NCBI GenBank assembly: GCA_025449115.1
Contig: JAHLKC010000064.1
Coordinates: 62,001-126,000, forward strand
DNA: 64,000 bases
Direction: 5' to 3'
DNA from: Chytridium lagenaria
Taxonomy: Eukaryota > Chytridiomycota > Chytridiomycetes > Chytridiales > Chytridiaceae
The stretch's first letter is position 1. Each line of letters opens with the position of its first letter. The translations under genes and the position numbers were made by a program. Shown in pieces: positions 23,306 through 56,391 of the stretch. Below the pieces are notes generated by a model, which was not told the DNA's origin, searched no databases, and saw only the letters and a program-made list of their open reading frames with translations.

Positions 23306-26300
23306 ATGGAGGACATGGAGGCTGTGGTGGATACAGATCAAGCGGATCAAGGCCACGGAGCAATAGAAGACCCCAAACATGCGGATTTAGGTGGTTCTCC
23401 GCACATGATTTGGCAGTCAGAGTCCGTCCACAAGAGATTTGAGCACAACCATGAATCTGGGGCGACATGGAGCCGTTCACCCTCCCCATCAAAAGGTCTC
23501 GCCATTCATGTAGAAAGTTCGCCACGTTCCGGGGGGCTGTTTTCTAACCGAAACTATGAAGGGAATCTTACACCTGAACCATCACTCACAGATCCCCTTC
23601 AAAGTTCGGTTCTGTATGATGATGAAGCGGAGTTACATAACCGTATCATCCCAGCTGCCGCCTCCCTGCTGACAACGCCGTCTCGGAAACGAGATGAAGA
23701 AGTGAAAGCAGCTTCTTCAGATGCCTCACCTCTGTCACCGCCAGCCTTGACGAACGTCGATTCATTGACATCTTCACCGTCTTCGCCGTCGCAAGCTTTC
23801 ATAACGCCTGCCGCTGGAACACCAAGCCACCCCTCTTTTATTGACGCAACCGACGCAGGTTCATCTCAGGCTACTGAGCATCACGAGTCTCTGCAGCCAG
23901 TTGTTGAAGTGGAAGAGCAGAGGCCACAAAGTTCTGAGCCGGCTTCCCCACCCCACCCGTCAAAAGATGACATTGAAATAACGAAGCCATCAGTGCCTGA
24001 ACCGAAATCTGCATTATCGGGGAGTGGGATTATGTCGAGTACTCTCAACTCCTTAAGTCAAGTGGAGCGGTCAGTGAGGCGTGTTATATCACTTTCCGGG
24101 CTATCAAAACCTCCTGCAACGCCAAAGGCGCCAGCGGAGTCAAGCGAACCCGTCAAACATACGCTTGAAGACGCGAAAGTGGCGAGGGAGCGCCGTCAAA
24201 GCGTTCCGGTTACCAGCAAATCTAGTGCTGACATTGAGGAAGATCCATCTTTAACATCCATCTCCTTACCAACCCTGATCAAGACCCTTCTTACGCAACT
24301 TCAATTACAAAGCCAGATCCACCCCTCCTTAACCGTCGTCCATCTAAACCTTTCATCGCGCCTCCTGGGTCTGCTAAATATCGGTATAGTCTTGCAGGGA
24401 CAGCTTCGTCGTCGAATTCAGAGTTTGACAGCGGGGATGGTGGGATGACCAGGGCGAATGAGGTTGCTGCTATCTTATCGGGAGCTACAGCTGTGATTTC
24501 AAGTATTTCAGCTGAAGAGGCGCCGGCGAGTCGGAGGAAAAATCAGGATTGGCATGATTTATTTCCGTCCGTGCCTAAGGATGAGACTCTTATTGATGGT
24601 GAGTTTTCTAATTTTTAATTCCTTTCAGTGTATACCACTTCTGCTAAGCAATGATTTAGAATTTAATTGTGCTTGGCAAAAGGAGGTTTTGATGCAGGGG
24701 AGGCTGTATCTTTCAAATCGACGGATATGCTTCAATTCCAATATTTTGGATGGACACAATCTTTAAATCTTGATTTTGATGATATCCATACCATCAACAA
24801 AAAGAGCGTGGGTGGGATTATACCAAATTCGATTGAAGTTGTTATGGTATCCGGATCGAATGTACGTTAATATTCTTGTTTTTATTCTTTATTGACTTTT
24901 TCCAAAATTTCTAGTATTTTTTGCAAGTTTTATGCAACGAGATGCTGCATATGAAAGTATTACAAAAGCGTGGGGAGGCCCTAGTCGAAGCATTCGCCTA
25001 AGAACATTTCGAAAAGTTAATGAAGATGAGGCATCCCAATCCCAAATGGATTCAACCTTCTCCCTTGATGAGGAGAGCCTTCCCGAGTCTTCATTGCCTG
25101 CATTACCAAAGGATGGGCTCTCTAAAATGTTGCCCGACCCTACTGCTCCCCAAATAGAAGATCATGATGCTTCGCTTCAACCGTCATTTGAGCCGATGGA
25201 GGTTGAATCTGGGCTCCCTACATCTCCACGCATCGTCAAGACAGTGAGCGTGGGGTCCGCTACAGAGTTGGAGGTGTTGCAACCAAAGTCATATACAAAC
25301 CGGTTTGCAAATGCACTGATCAATGAGATGGATAAGCTTGTGGATGAGAATGAACCTGAAGCGGACAGGAAACCGGCGTTGTCTGTTCAATTACCAAATG
25401 CTCACAAGAGCGCTCCGCCGACAGTGTCAAAGGCTACAATGAAGACATTAAACCCGACGACGGAACACCAAGTTCAAAGGACTTTTTCTCAAAAACATCT
25501 AACATTTCCCCAAATTCTCAAGCTGTGATGATGAGTTTTCCTGTTGAACGGCGACTTTCTGGGGTGTCTGTGTCGAAGGGGCTCGCCGATCTCGCAGAGT
25601 CTATTCCAGGAAGCCCAGCAATATCTGAGGACGGAAGTCAAGGTGGATCTTCCGGCCCTGGATCAGCTACTCATGGGTTTCCTCATCCCGGCTTAGGGTC
25701 ATCTACGTCTCCATCATCAATCGTCGGTGTACGAAATCAACATATCGTATTTCAGCGCCACCCCGTCAATGCCTCTCAAATGAAGTTTGATGCCGCTCAT
25801 CGCCCGAAATCTCCCACCATTAGTCCCGACAAAGTCATGCTGCATGATCATCCTCCTCGACCTGTTTCAGGATTTGGACGGGCTTATGCGAGTAATTCGT
25901 CACTTTCCGCTCCGTTATCGGAGGATTCGTTGGCTTTCAGCAGATTCAAGCCCTATGATTGATCTTACTCCTCACATGGATAATGCTTTATCTCGGAAAG
26001 CGGCTACACTTGTGACTACAGTTAAACAGTTGAGCCACACGAACCCGAACCTTGTGGAAAATCTTTCGGAAGCAATGGAGACCGTGTCGCTAAAGTCTGC
26101 TCCAGCTGAGGTCAGGAGACATAAGAAGAAGAAGTTAGTGACGAGGACAAAGCCTGCACCCACTGTTATTATTCCGAACACGCCATCAACCTGTCCTTGT
26201 GAAGAAGTTCACCAGAAAATGACCTCAGTGTTTACGGGAACTTTTAAAGCATCGGTGGACCGTCTTTGGGATTTGTTATACGTCACTCCGATGACGCCAG

Positions 26301-27650
26301 ACTCTTTCTTCCACAATTTCATCACCAAACGGCGGAAATGTCAAAATTTGGTGTTGACGGATTGGCTTCCTGGCACAAAATCTACTGAGTCTCCAAAAAC
26401 TGATTCATCAGCTGATGCTATCGTTGGATCGTTGTGCAGCGCTGGCCACCCGTCTCCGCCCTCCCTTACTCCGCCAGTCAAATACAAAAATCTAGGAATG
26501 GCGGTGGTCGGAAGTCATCGGCACATGGAGTATGTGATCCCGTTGAATAATCCGCTTGGTCCTAAATCGACAAGGTGCCAGGCGAGGGAGTTTATTGAGC
26601 ATGTGGAAGAGGTGCTAGAGGGGGGGTCTGTTGGGTATGTGTGCGTCAAACAGACGAGTGTAACGCCGGATGTGCCGGCGGGGAATACCTTCTTGACGCA
26701 TTTGAAGATATGCCTTACAAGGGTGTCAGCGACGGAAACGCGATTGAAGGCGTCATGCGATGTGGAGTTTACTAAGAGTTCATGGATTCAATGTAAGTTG
26801 GACATACATATTCCACTTTTTTCCTGCAGTCTTTGTTTTCACAGCCTGCTCCCTGTTTTCTGTTTATATCAAAGACTAAGATCTTTTTTACTAAAATATG
26901 TTTTGTTAAGCTGTTTTGAAATCCGCTGTTCCTGATGGTATGCGCACATACTACCGTGAACTGGAACCCTTTCTCTCTGATTATCTGTTTTCAAATCCTC
27001 CATCAATACCCACAGTTCAAGTAATGGAGGAAATCGAGGTTACAGACGATGAAGAACAAGAACGGAACCAGAAGAGCGAAGCTTCAATTAAAGAATACAA
27101 GGCGGATAGCAGAGCGCCGAGCCTCGAACATCCCCTACAAAAGGAGGTTGAAGAAATACGGAAATTAGAAAATGAGGAGAAAAGGAGACGTTCACCGCAG
27201 AGGGGAGTGTCTCCGGTACCTCCTGGCATTGCATCAGGTCTGCTGGCTACCGCAGACACTGCGAGCGTTTCTTTAACATCGACAAAGGGTGCTGATGGTC
27301 TCGATCATGTTGCAGCAGCTTTGGATAATCACGTGGTCTCTCTCTCGGCAGGGTTTACTATATTCTATGCCATTGTCTCTAGGTTGGGGTCGCCGGTGAC
27401 TCGATCTGAAAAGTTCAAAGCGAGTTTCGCAGTGGTGCTGGATGGGTTATTTCAATCACCTCGGTTCCTCGGTTCTGCTATGTTGCTTTTTGTGCTTGGC
27501 ACAATTTGTGTCATGTTCACAATGTCGCAGATCCTTTCGTCATTCACCGATAGGCGATTGCATTGGGATCAAGCGATAATATCTCAAATCGTGGAGGAGA
27601 CTGTGCGCAAAACTCTTCATATACTTGAGGGTCGCAGTCAAGAGGAATGA
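23306..27650 (+). CDS. GRAM-VASt sterol transfer protein (Lam/Ysp2/GRAMD1 type)
   Basis: This is an ER-anchored protein that moves sterol between ER and plasma membrane at contact sites. The first 400 residues are Ser/Pro-rich. The GRAM domain begins ETLIDEFNCAWQKEVLMQGR, LYLSNRRICFNSNIFGW and continues with IHTINKKSVGGIIPNSIEVV and FFASFMQRDAAYESI. After another disordered part comes the VASt domain: TSVFTGTFKASVDRLWDLLY, SFFHNFITKRRKCQNLVLTD, GSHRHMEYVIPLNNPLGP, GYVCVKQTSVTPDVPAGN and ASCDVEFTKSSWIQ. One TM helix (GSAMLLFVLGTICVMFTMSQ) is near the C-terminus, as expected. Introns: 24599-24659, one ending at 24915, 25892-25940 and 26793-26910. Missing bases at 24744-24747 and 25483-25487, and one between 24253 and 24420, break the frame. 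The GRAM case (NIFGW) is unambiguous. Confidence 0.88.
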
Positions 27651-52164: not shown

Positions 52165-54853
52165 ATGTCAGGCACATTTGGTGGTCTACACGACCTTCTC
52201 AAGCAAATAACTACATTTCTATCAACTTCCCTTCTGTCGCTATGGAACACCTTCCTCGCACCTCTTGGCATGGCCCTTATACACCTTTTTATCGGGATCA
52301 TGAAAGGTGTTTGGCACGGACCCTTTTTTCGGCACCTCCGTCCACATACCCGATGGCGTTCTCGGCGTCCCCGTGGCAAAAAAATTACAACTCTTACCCA
52401 TTTTCAAAATCCTGGAAACCTCCGCAGCTTTTGTCCGCGTCGTGGGTACTCTTTTCGGGCTGGGGTTGGGTTCAGGATGTATACGCAAATGTTGCTTTTT
52501 GTAATGAGAGCATCGTGGTTCGGTGCGATTCCGGAATATCTTAACACGCAAGACGGACTGTGGAGCAAACTACCAGATCCAGTTTACAAAACAGTCATGG
52601 CGAGGATCGTAGGGGCGGTGATAGGAATGGTCGTCGGGTTTCGCTTCTTTGCCAACGCGCTGGTGTTGATGGCGAAGGGCTTCTTCTTTGGCTTTGATCC
52701 TATCATGATGCACTGTGCTGATGGGATGCTCTTCAAGTTGAATGGGGGATTTCCAAAGTCGTTTATTGGTAAAGCCTTCGGGCTACTGTTCGGCTTTGGT
52801 ATCGGATTCTACCCATTTATCAACTTTCTCACTGTTGCCCTGAGAGGACTTTGGTTTGGCATATACCCCGAAATTTTCGTAAAAGACCAGCATCTTCTTC
52901 CAATAGGAGCCCAGGCGGCTTACTCTACAGTTGCGGGAAGAATTGTTGGAGGCGTGGCTGGTGGTTTCTTGGGGCTTTTCGGGCTCGTGAACACCATATT
53001 TCTCATTTTATGGGGTTTTTTCTATGGCGCTGTCGGTGACTACCACTTGAAAGGAGGTGTGCTGGGGAAACCCGTATACCCCCTCAAATCGGTTGTCGGT
53101 CGAGCTTTTGGTTGCATTTTTGGGCTCTACTTTGGATTTAGAACATTCCTTGATGTCAGTCTCACCTTCATCTTGCATTTTTGGAAGTATATGTCGATGC
53201 TATGGTAAGCCTGCGCAATATTCACTAGAACGGGGAAAATTCTCATTTTATTTATAGGGAGGCTATCTCCAAAGTTCTTGGGTTCATTTACCGCGTCATT
53301 CTTCGTAACTTGGGGCGCATTTTTAAGTTCATTGGCTACGGAATATGGTACGGGTATGCACCTATGAAATGCCATCTTCAAGACGGTTTGCTTCCGAGCC
53401 TTTCAGAGAAGGACTGTGATATCGCACAGAGCAACGTTGACAAAACGTGTATGTCTATTGGCGCTTTTTTAGGGATGGGTGTAGGTCTTCGGGCCAAGTG
53501 CAACTTCATTACGATGATCCCAAGGGCTTCATGGCATGGACCACTTTCTCCAGACCTCATCATTGACGATGGGTTCCCTTGCCTCACTTTTCCAAAAAAG
53601 CCTCTGAAAACGGTCGTTGGAAAAGTTTTTGGTGTGGTCTTTGGACTTGGATTAGGGTTCCGGTCTTACACCAAGGTCCTTGGAATACTCATGAGAGGAG
53701 GATGGTACGGCGCCTTCCCACGAAACTGACCATGAAAGACGGATTCTTTTGGAGCCTCCTGAACCTGTATATAAGACCGCATGCGGATTGACAGCTGGGT
53801 GGCTTTGCGGTCTTGCTGTTGGTTGCAGATCATGCGTATCCTGCCTTACGGTACTCCCAAAGGGTATGTGGCTTGGTGTTGCACCCGACTTCTTCACGTT
53901 TAAGGACGCATGGCTCAAGATGACAGAATCTTCAGAATGGGAATCGCCTTTTGGAGGGCGACAGGACTTTGTGGGTTAATCGTTGGATTTCAGTTTTTCG
54001 TGAATGCAATCGTATTGATTTTACAATCCATGTGGATTGGGTGTGTTCACAAAGACTTTTTCTTTAAAGATGGTGTTCTGGGTCCACCTCGAAAAGTTAT
54101 GACTGGGCCTACTGGGGTAGGGCTTGGCGCTATTCTTGGCTTCGGGATAGGGTGGAGAAGCCTTGTTGATTTCTTCCTCATGGGTCTCCGTAGTTCTTGG
54201 TACGGTCGGCGTGGTCGACTATATAAAGTGTTTCCACCAAACGCCAAACTCCGCAGGAACTTAAATGGCAGCCTTAGTGTTATTGCACTCATTGAACCAA
54301 CAGCTGAGAGATAGAAGCAGCACGTCCTATTGTTTTTGAAGCCACTCCACTTCCTCCCATAAACGGCGAAGGTCGACATACAAGAAAGAGCTCGGAGCTT
54401 GCCGACGGGTTGATCCATCCTTCTTCAGGATCACCTGGATTGATTGTGGCGACGGATGACCCGGATCAAATTCGCAATGCGCGAAAAAAACTCCGAGGCG
54501 TCGCGGCCTCTTCATCTGGAGCAAAGAAGATTCATCCTCAAGGCACTTCCAGCCCCGAAACCCATGAAGGAGGTCGCAAAAAAGTCATTCCAAGTTGGAA
54601 ATAGCATTGCAGAAGAGAGCTTTAATGAAGCAACAAAATTGCCGGGGGCGCTCGTTCTTGTCGAAGGAAAAGACCAAGAATTGACAGGAAACTCAAGTTT
54701 GCCTATGGCTTTAGCCCCTTCCACTCCGCAAGCCGTTACATCGACATGACGGAAACCCTTCCTTCCTATGGTGTCAGTATGGCCCCGTCGTCCAAACCCA
54801 TGAGCGCAGCCACCATTGTGCCTCCAGACGAAACTAATATCCCCAATGCGTGA
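52165..54853 (+). CDS. tandem-repeat membrane protein, glycine-zipper and W-[FYH]-G units
   Basis: I do not recognise this family. The protein starts MSGTFGGLHDLLKQITTFLS, and a hydrophobic lead (MALIHLFIGIMKGVWHGP) introduces about ten tandem units of roughly 55 residues. A unit runs: a G...G...G zipper; G[FWLC][RQ] with a hydrophobic stretch; W[FYHL]G or a close variant; 6-10 residues, often ending DG; Pro-rich, often PVYKTV or PLKSVV. Unit starts (the GFR-like point) are near 52470, 52636, 52804, 52981, 53134, 53483, 53656, 53822, 53985 and 54150. Examples are LGLGFRSYTKVLGILMRGG and LIVGFQFFVNAIVLILQSM. One intron (53205-53257) lies in the divergent fifth unit. Single missing bases at 52471, 53717-53719 and 53747-53750 and near 53910 break the frame, and each is fixed so that repeat spacing is kept. 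A polytopic or re-entrant membrane protein is inferred. Confidence 0.75.
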
Positions 54854-54862
54854 TAACGTCAC

Positions 54863-56391
54863 AAGCAGAAAAAATGATGCAAATGCATGCCACTCAATTG
54901 CACCGGAGAATACTCCACGAAGTATACTGGGGTCAAAGTTCTTAAAGAGTGGTGGTCAAGCCTAACGAGCTCCCTGATCCCGTGGGAGGACGCCCTGAGG
55001 ACGAGTGGCTTACGCAGGGGCAACCACTCTGGCCGGAAATATCGCAGGTCCTTTGTTCTTGGAACTCTCTTTGGCCTTGGTGCAGGTCTTGCAGCTTGGT
55101 ATGCTATATTCCGTCAAACTCCTGGACAGTCCGTCCCGACCCTGTACACTACAGCATATTTTGGTGGTACAGCTCGCAATGGTATGCTACTTTTCTAATT
55201 GGAAAGCGGTACAGTTCTGGGCATCCTTCTCGCAGTCCTCGGTATTCGGAACGCGTTTAATCCTCTCTTCTACTCCCGCACCGTCCTCCGGGTTTCATAA
55301 CCAAAGTTTGGCAGCCTGCCTTACTTCCCACCTTGAGCTCATCGCTGTTCTCGCTTCACTCTCTATCTACCTCCGATAATGTGTGTTGGCGCCACCATTC
55401 GTCGACTCATTCGCTCCGTTTGGTATCTTATCCGCGCAATCGCCTGTGGAACTACGGGGGTGCGAATTCCTGCAAAGGAGCACGGCCGCCACCAACCCCT
55501 CCGTATTACTGGCGGGAAGATCACGAAAAAGCTTGTTCCGTGTCATCATTTTTGCAGCAATTGTGTCATTTATGACCATCTTTGCGCTCCCGGTGATGGT
55601 TGATCGTGGAGGTCTTCATTTGGCTTCAGGGTCAGTTACGGTGATAATTTCCATTAGCGTTGCGATCCCTATCCTTGACATTATGTTAAAATGGATGGCG
55701 CCTTCCTACCGCACGCGTCCCATAGATGATAGATCCGCGCAAAGGCTTGAAGCCGCCGGATTAACGAGGAAAGAAGCTGTGGAGCTGAACGGTCTTATGG
55801 TGTCAAGAATCGGGGCAGCGAAGATGGGAGGAAATACGACAGATCCGGCGGGACCGTTACGTATTTGGATAAGAATCATTGGGTTGTGGGCGGAAGACGA
55901 GGTTCGGTTGAAAAAAAATCCACAACGTGCTGATGGGTTGGAATCACATGCCGAATTCGGAAGCTGTACGTCGTCGAAGTCCTGGTGAGGAGAATGGGGC
56001 TCTGGGAAGCAGTGAACTTGTGATGATTCGCGGCCTGGACGCCGAGAGTCAGAGAAAGGTGGCGGAGGCAAGAACGAGACGCTCAAGCAGCGTTCCAAAA
56101 AATGGGCTTCCAAATCCATCAGCGGAAATGCATCGTGGTAGTTGGAGCAGAAGGGTCAGTGAAGTATTGATGCCGGGTCTCGCAACGTATCGCCGAAATT
56201 CGGAGATAGGGAATCAGTTGGGGTACTTTACCGATAAGCTTTCCGGGCGGCCTTTGGGAGAGCTTTTTGAGGTGGAAAATAGGTATTATAGGCTTGTATT
56301 GGAAGCCAACGATAAGCTTTGGATTTGGACATGGAATGGTGATTTCTCAAACTACGATAGCGGATCCGCATCATTGAATATATTTGTTTAA
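54863..56391 (+). CDS. probable C-terminal part of the repeat membrane protein
   Basis: No clear start codon or promoter separates this part from the repeat array, and the best reading is that the same gene continues. Frame pieces are VVVKPNELPDPVGGRPEDEW, then LGTLFGLGAGLAAWYAIF (again a glycine zipper), GTVLGILLAVLGIRNAFNPL, LFRVIIFAAIVSFMTIFALP and VTVIISISVAIPILDIML, i.e. about four further membrane segments. A cytoplasmic end follows: RSAQRLEAAGLTRKEAVELN, a basic Ser-rich stretch, and FEVENRYYRLVLEANDKLWI, ending SASLNIFV at 56391. At least six frame changes must be bridged, so the exact protein is uncertain. It could instead be a separate gene starting near 54863; the in-frame TGA-TAA pair at 54852-54857 would be the stop of the first. 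Confidence 0.5.

Follow-up and report, generated by a model that had tools for sequence, protein, structure and literature searches.

Reticulon-type hairpin proteins, which shape membranes, have hydrophobic segments which at about 34 residues exceed the usual single membrane span but fall short of two, a property shared by the repeat unit described here. The reticulon homology domain is represented by a model in Pfam, and so are the MscS-like channels, whose glycine-rich pore helix presumably resembles the unit as well. Polytopic proteins with glycine-rich helices bearing polar residues are common among transporters, the classical folds of which contain fixed two- or threefold repeats. The glycine-zipper spacing of the unit is also found in the Gly-zipper_Omp family (PF13488), of which neither the W-[FYH]-G motif nor the Asp-Gly loop is known to be a part.

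The window analyzed here, that is, a stretch of 64 kb out of the 41.9-Mb, 356-contig genome of Chytridium lagenaria, contains what is almost certainly a conserved coding gene of a new family. Its product would best be explained as a multi-pass membrane protein with relatives in Chytridiomycota and Blastocladiomycota. Eight pieces of the window reading, searched against Pfam at E 10, matched nothing except the glycine zipper of PF13488, over 11 residues only (7.4 bits, below the cut-off of 25; E 5.5). Neither the reticulon profile nor the MscS channel family was among these matches, nor among the Pfam matches of five relatives searched at E 1, which retrieved unrelated families only from Pfam and NCBIfam (best E 0.16 and 0.59). 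PDB sequence searches with the window and the relatives gave no match. The first-pass annotation knew of no family with this pattern, in line with these searches, all of which were empty of relevant families. The titles and abstract openings among the literature matches listed contain nothing on the repeat protein. With its ten tandem copies, its glycine zipper, and the missing profile match, the array is unlike the reticulon-type proteins.

Relatives and Distribution

With the joined reading of the gene as query, six proteins reach E 0.001 among 8000 scored candidates, and all of them are named hypothetical or uncharacterized protein only. They are P0001 (HDU97_006923 of Phlyctochytrium planicorne, 62% identity, 1223 aa, "hypothetical protein"), P0002 (HDU76_004756 of Blyttiomyces sp. 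JEL0837, 45% identity, "hypothetical protein", marked partial), P0003 (HDV05_003937 of Chytridiales sp. JEL 0842, 38% identity, "hypothetical protein"), and P0004-P0006, proteins of Allomyces macrogynus and A. arbusculus with 23-26% identity and lengths of 1613-1621 aa. According to a taxonomy look-up, P0001-P0003 belong to Chytridiomycota and the Allomyces proteins to Blastocladiomycota. The first-pass annotation had named orthologs in further zoosporic fungi, sharing the unit, as support for its reading, and the three chytrid and three Allomyces proteins among the 8000 scored candidates are of this kind. A search with an open piece of 253 aa had found none among 3018 candidates, of which only proteins of 0.55-1.75 times the query length were eligible; this limit was overcome by the longer joined-reading query. 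With an alignment of the relatives as query, only P0002 and P0003 were retrieved from among 8000 candidates; P0001 and the Allomyces proteins did not come up. None of 85 pattern matches in viral contigs and none of 235 in prokaryote genome contigs were confirmed as relatives.

Gene Layout and Repeat Unit

The repeat gene is read from an ATG at 52165 on the + strand and is estimated at about 1300 codons, with at least one intron and, as assembled, many frame changes. From 5' to 3' it encodes ten tandem units, each about 56 residues long, and a half unit. A variable linker then leads to the C-terminal membrane domain, and a tail closes the protein. The array, as delimited by profile search (10 full units and 1 half unit), spans 52276-54206; unit coordinates are mapped back from pieces of the joined reading.

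52165-56391 (3' end approximate), + strand: whole gene; its P. planicorne orthologue is HDU97_006923 (P0001)
52276-52465, + strand: unit 1, N-terminal, divergent, frame change inside (i-E 9e-10)
52468-52635, + strand: unit 2 (i-E 8.6e-20)
52636-52803, + strand: unit 3 (i-E 8.3e-17)
52804-52983, + strand: unit 4, GFYP replacing GFR; profile match stops at 52962 (i-E 4.2e-16)
52984-53127, + strand: unit 5 (i-E 1.3e-15)
53205-53257, + strand: GT-AG intron of 53 nt, read from the sequence and P0001
53301-53483, + strand: unit 6 (i-E 7.7e-15)
53484-53654, + strand: unit 7 (i-E 9.5e-18)
53655-53820, + strand: unit 8, frame changes inside (i-E 3.8e-18)
53821-53984, + strand: unit 9, frame change inside (i-E 1.6e-13)
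53985-54149, + strand: unit 10 (i-E 3.7e-17)
54150-54206, + strand: half unit closing the array, GWRSLVDFFLMGLRSSWYG (i-E 2.9e-4)
54314-55020, + strand: variable linker, poorly conserved, from comparison with chytrid relatives
55022-55720, + strand: C-terminal membrane domain, contains GIRNAFNPLFYSR, many frame changes, from alignment to relatives
55842-55913, + strand: juxtamembrane stretch DPAGPLRIWIRIIGLWAEDEVRLK, conserved; also discernible in P0001, P0003, and the Allomyces proteins
55912-56391, + strand: C-terminal tail, then stop; 51% identity to the end of P0001, matched over 55912-56343

The spliced junction of the intron reads W-E-A-I-S, compared with W-D-A-I-S in P0001. The linker is Ser/Thr/Pro-rich in the chytrid relatives, and the C-terminal membrane domain, in which a GP-R motif is conserved, has about four hydrophobic stretches as counted by eye. 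The alignment of P0001 to the window covers 52582-56364, and both P0001 and P0003 carry array, linker, and C-terminal domain, so that the downstream part to 56391 belongs to the same protein as the array, which had been surmised from the window sequence; array and downstream part as two genes are rejected, the relatives having both on one protein. In the own-genome searches all matches (4/4 in one search, 6/6 in another) fall within the repeat gene, of which the genome, to the extent of these searches, has one copy.

The successive units start 164-183 nt apart in eight out of ten intervals, close to the spacing of 153-177 nt originally claimed for most of the array. The remaining intervals are those from unit 1 to unit 2 (about 192 nt), where a frame change sits between the units, and from unit 5 to unit 6 (about 317 nt), which holds the 53-nt intron and a divergent helix. 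The unit consensus was drawn from 77 units of seven proteins. Its core is G-[LF]-R-x3-N-x-[LV]-x4-[KR]-[GAS]-x-W-[YF]-G-x2-P, followed by a loop with D-G and often P, and then by [ST]-x2-G-R-x-[FL]-G-x3-G-x3, which leads into the G of the next unit. The leading G is conserved in 100% of the units, the R two positions on in 75%, the N in 40%, the W in 81%, the G at W+2 in 100%, the P in 79%, and the D in 72%, followed by G in 66%. The three glycines of the GxxxGxxxG zipper are conserved at 88, 96, and 100%, and the G-R ahead of it at 48 and 56%. Against this consensus the first-pass description, with its zipper, GFR-like point, W[FYHL]G, DG, and Pro, proves accurate, and its count of about ten tandem copies of a Gly-zipper/W-[FYH]-G unit corresponds to the ten full units and the half unit found, the window array carrying G[FL]R-x3-N, W[FY]G-x2-P, DG, and GxxxGxxxG in tandem, with the C-terminal membrane domain and its GP-R motif on the same protein.

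A unit profile made from Allomyces sequences only (13 units of P0004) gives ten domains of the window reading more than 10 bits, with 45.1 bits as the highest score. No domain at all was found in any of 500 full shuffles, and one domain-bearing sequence (13.5 bits) occurred among 500 shuffles within 10-residue blocks, which roughly preserve the hydrophobicity pattern. An array arising by chance or from low complexity is rejected by this test, which is not wholly blind, because the limits of the 13 units came from a profile for which four window units had been the initial seed.

Several other genes are recognizable in the window. A NIPA-type magnesium transporter gene (PF05653; 57344-59400, - strand) lies downstream of the repeat gene and convergent with it; its five matched pieces have no stop inside. 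An oxysterol-binding protein gene (PF01237; 33866-36954, + strand) is represented by four matched pieces, one of which (C64:97609-97866) holds two stops, perhaps from intron read-through. Together with a protein containing the VASt domain (PF16016, lipid-transfer type; 25784-26932, + strand), it makes two genes of the lipid-transfer type. A radial-spoke family match fits a flagellated fungus. Rfam scans at gathering thresholds and ARAGORN scans of the 64-kb window were empty.

Age and Selection of the Array

P0001-P0003 share with the window protein the unit, the unit order (with ten units in P0002 and P0003), and the position of the linker, and the C-terminal domain is present on P0001 and P0003 as in the window protein. 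P0002, being partial, stops upstream of this domain and of DPAGPLRIWIRIIGLWAEDEVRLK, the comparison of which is made with the other relatives, and P0001 as annotated is without the first units. By alignment score, the top match of window units 1-10 in P0002 and of units 1-11 in P0003 (the half unit counting as unit 11) is the unit of the same number. The half unit is unmatched in P0002, the half unit of which fell under the cut-off. In P0001, whose annotated N-terminus is cut, window units 3-11 find their own-numbered counterparts, and units 1 and 2 are without a full one. The ten window units are about 21-54% identical to one another; identity between orthologous units is 52-70% for P0001 (units 3-10), 35-51% for P0002, and 27-49% for P0003, and since the orthologue identities overlap the between-unit range, the order in P0002 and P0003 rests on score, not on identity. 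As the units are collinear in three chytrids, their number and order were fixed before these chytrids split. A fresh slippage array is rejected, the units scoring better against their orthologues than against their neighbours. The array is old and selected unit by unit within the chytrids; the collinear units and a normal level of substitution at conserved columns bear out what had first been read from the divergence of the units.

The Allomyces proteins carry the same unit and a similar C-terminal domain with the GP-R motif. Window unit 1 has unit 1 as its top match in P0002, P0003, and P0004 alike; in P0004, only window units 1 and 2 match in order, while among the other nine, seven match units 14-16, one matches unit 3, and the half unit matches unit 2. 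P0004 has 17 full or partial unit matches, compared with ten units and a half unit in the window, and P0004-P0006 contain a Pro-rich insert in the middle of the array. Because of this insert and the higher number of units than in the chytrids, the array has grown or shrunk between the two phyla.

Frame Changes in the Assembled Copy

P0001-P0003 are given as intact proteins, unlike the window copy, in which the reading frame is interrupted by frame shifts within 52165-54314 and by many more up to 56391. About 22 frame changes are indicated by frame-aware alignment, an upper estimate, because the alignment forces changes in the badly conserved linker; owing to the alignment penalties, the real 53-nt intron was also scored as a frame change and is here counted as an intron. 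The window copy could be a recent pseudogene that no longer makes a whole protein, the family being real elsewhere. Such decay would be suggested by the 20 frame changes relative to P0001 over 52582-56364, even with 9 of them in the linker, and by the two or three upstream ones in 52165-52465 relative to P0003. In five chaperonin loci of the same assembly, inspection by eye showed just two clear frame changes where no intron would fit, and no stop falls within the five matched pieces of the nearby NIPA transporter gene; the repeat gene is more densely broken than the few other genes examined. The homopolymer gaps proposed in the first-pass annotation suit several of the frame changes, and the array is indeed rich in runs of at least four equal bases (20.9 per kb, compared with 10.0-16.2 in three other stretches of the window); the changes are, however, more numerous than that proposal implied, and most of them lie in the downstream half, which at 13.0 runs per kb is not richer in base runs than the other stretches.

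Decay of the copy is nevertheless unlikely. Where the three other chytrids all agree, the window copy deviates in 21/180 columns (11.7%), which is inside the range obtained when the same test is applied to the intact relatives (14/173, 26/185, and 44/203), and only a single in-frame stop is found outside the intron, located in the poorly alignable linker. Since the chaperonin loci carry frame changes, indel errors of the assembly also affect genes whose function is indispensable. The frame changes of two of these loci, L010 and L011, lie within conserved chaperonin motifs. With the conserved columns kept normally and a single stop in the linker, local assembly error appears likelier than decay, although the density of the frame changes stays unaccounted for. 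The family is real whether or not the window copy has decayed, because the relatives are given as intact proteins.

Structure of the Unit and of the Array

An AlphaFold2 model of a 1039-aa relative (six rows) has a mean pLDDT of 34.4 and a pTM of 0.23, and a model of a three-helix window piece, made with 22 unit-shifted pieces, a mean pLDDT of 50.7 and a pTM of 0.30. At this low confidence, one uninterrupted helix of about 32 residues is predicted for most units of the relative, with a one-residue break at the turn point in one unit, and for all three units of the window piece. Foldseek with the three-helix model found no match at E 0.001 and three at E 10, the best at E 4.1.

At such pLDDT values, the models speak neither for nor against the repeated fold that the first-pass annotation had named as support, or the polytopic or pore-like assembly it had surmised from the glycine zippers. 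The columns of the unit are more informative. The small-residue face consists of G-x3-G-x3-G in the first half of the unit and of the G/A/S and the G flanking the W in the second; its phases in columns 67-75 and 2-19 are 26 degrees apart. When the second-half columns were shuffled 20,000 times, equal strength together with equal alignment came out in 0.7% of the shuffles, and equal strength without regard to phase in 4.7%. A polar face (R, N, S/T, K/R) is found 118 degrees from the small-residue face, its magnitude being equalled in 0.5% of shuffles. The hydrophobic stretch has charges at fixed places, with K/R at a mid-stretch position in 81% of the units. The continuity of the column phases across the halves fits a single long helix for each unit, packed on one face and polar on another. 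The motifs first recognized in the unit stand, and for its shape the column phases and the low-confidence models favour one long helix plus loop over an obvious two-helix hairpin.

In the proposed explanation, each unit would form one helix of about 32 residues and a loop of about 22 residues bearing the Pro and the Asp-Gly. The small-residue faces (G-x3-G-x3-G ... G-x3-G) would pack the helices side by side into a rigid membrane-embedded array. On the other side of each helix, a stripe of basic and polar residues (R, N, S/T, K/R) would look into a shared hydrophilic groove or lumen, so that the array would offer an anionic or polar partner a scaffold or a conduit. Membrane embedding of the array is very probable, and one helix per unit reasonably so; that the polar stripes line a groove or pore can be put forward only tentatively. 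For the reading as a whole, a glycine-packed helix array with a polar groove, a probability of roughly 0.4 is assigned, and a helical membrane scaffold or pore is to be regarded as the best guess, not as a result.

The low confidence of the models (pLDDT 34.4 and 50.7) and the missing Foldseek match at E 0.001 count against this reading. With one helix per unit, the equal-looking loops would alternate sides unless they ran back across, which would be odd for repeats, and the lone mid-helix arginine is costly without a partner. It is here that a membrane-shaping hairpin array comes in as the main rival to the groove, a doubtful one in its own right. Each 34-residue stretch would then be a short helical hairpin that turns at G-[FL]-R and dips into one leaflet, leaving the Asp-Gly loops on one side, and a row of ten such hairpins would curve an internal membrane or provide it with a scaffold, for which the reticulon-type hairpins provide the analogue. 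Loops of equal make-up suit one side, the K/R cuts the hydrophobic stretch mid-way, and either half falls rather short of a full membrane span. At 100 degrees, the halves have the stronger hydrophobic moment (0.86 and 1.02, compared with 0.70 for the whole stretch); at 105 degrees the whole stretch reaches 0.88. At the turn point, all four chytrid sequences keep a Pro in unit 4, just after the GxY point, and an extra Gly in unit 5; the Pro would also be explicable by a hairpin turn. The small-residue face, however, stays in phase across the supposed turn, where the weak models are unbroken save for the one-residue break, and no reticulon profile appears among the Pfam matches. That the protein is simply a member of a known transporter or channel superfamily, too diverged for profiles to recognize, is highly improbable, even though polytopic proteins of this make-up are common among transporters and a multidrug efflux pump stands at rank 2 of the Foldseek matches (E 7.0). 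The five relatives are without any relevant Pfam or NCBIfam match, PDB sequence searches retrieved nothing, and the unit numbers, ten in the chytrids and 17 (full or partial) in P0004, are unlike the fixed repeats of classical transporter folds.

Comparison with Known Systems

The repeat family is absent from the catalogues searched and present in two zoosporic phyla, Chytridiomycota and Blastocladiomycota. A gene of this kind could have a membrane role in the zoospore or the sporangium. Structurally, the unit is of interest as a simple natural design for the packing of many long membrane helices. A further step, decidedly improbable at present, would be to see in the protein a membrane conduit of a new class, built from repeats and belonging to flagellated fungi, with ten long helices in the chytrids and about sixteen in Allomyces; the glycine faces would hold the helices together, and the groove or pore would be lined by a ladder of Arg-Asn-Thr-Lys stripes. 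In bridge-like lipid carriers, length is set by the number of units; the same would apply to such a conduit, albeit built of membrane helices.
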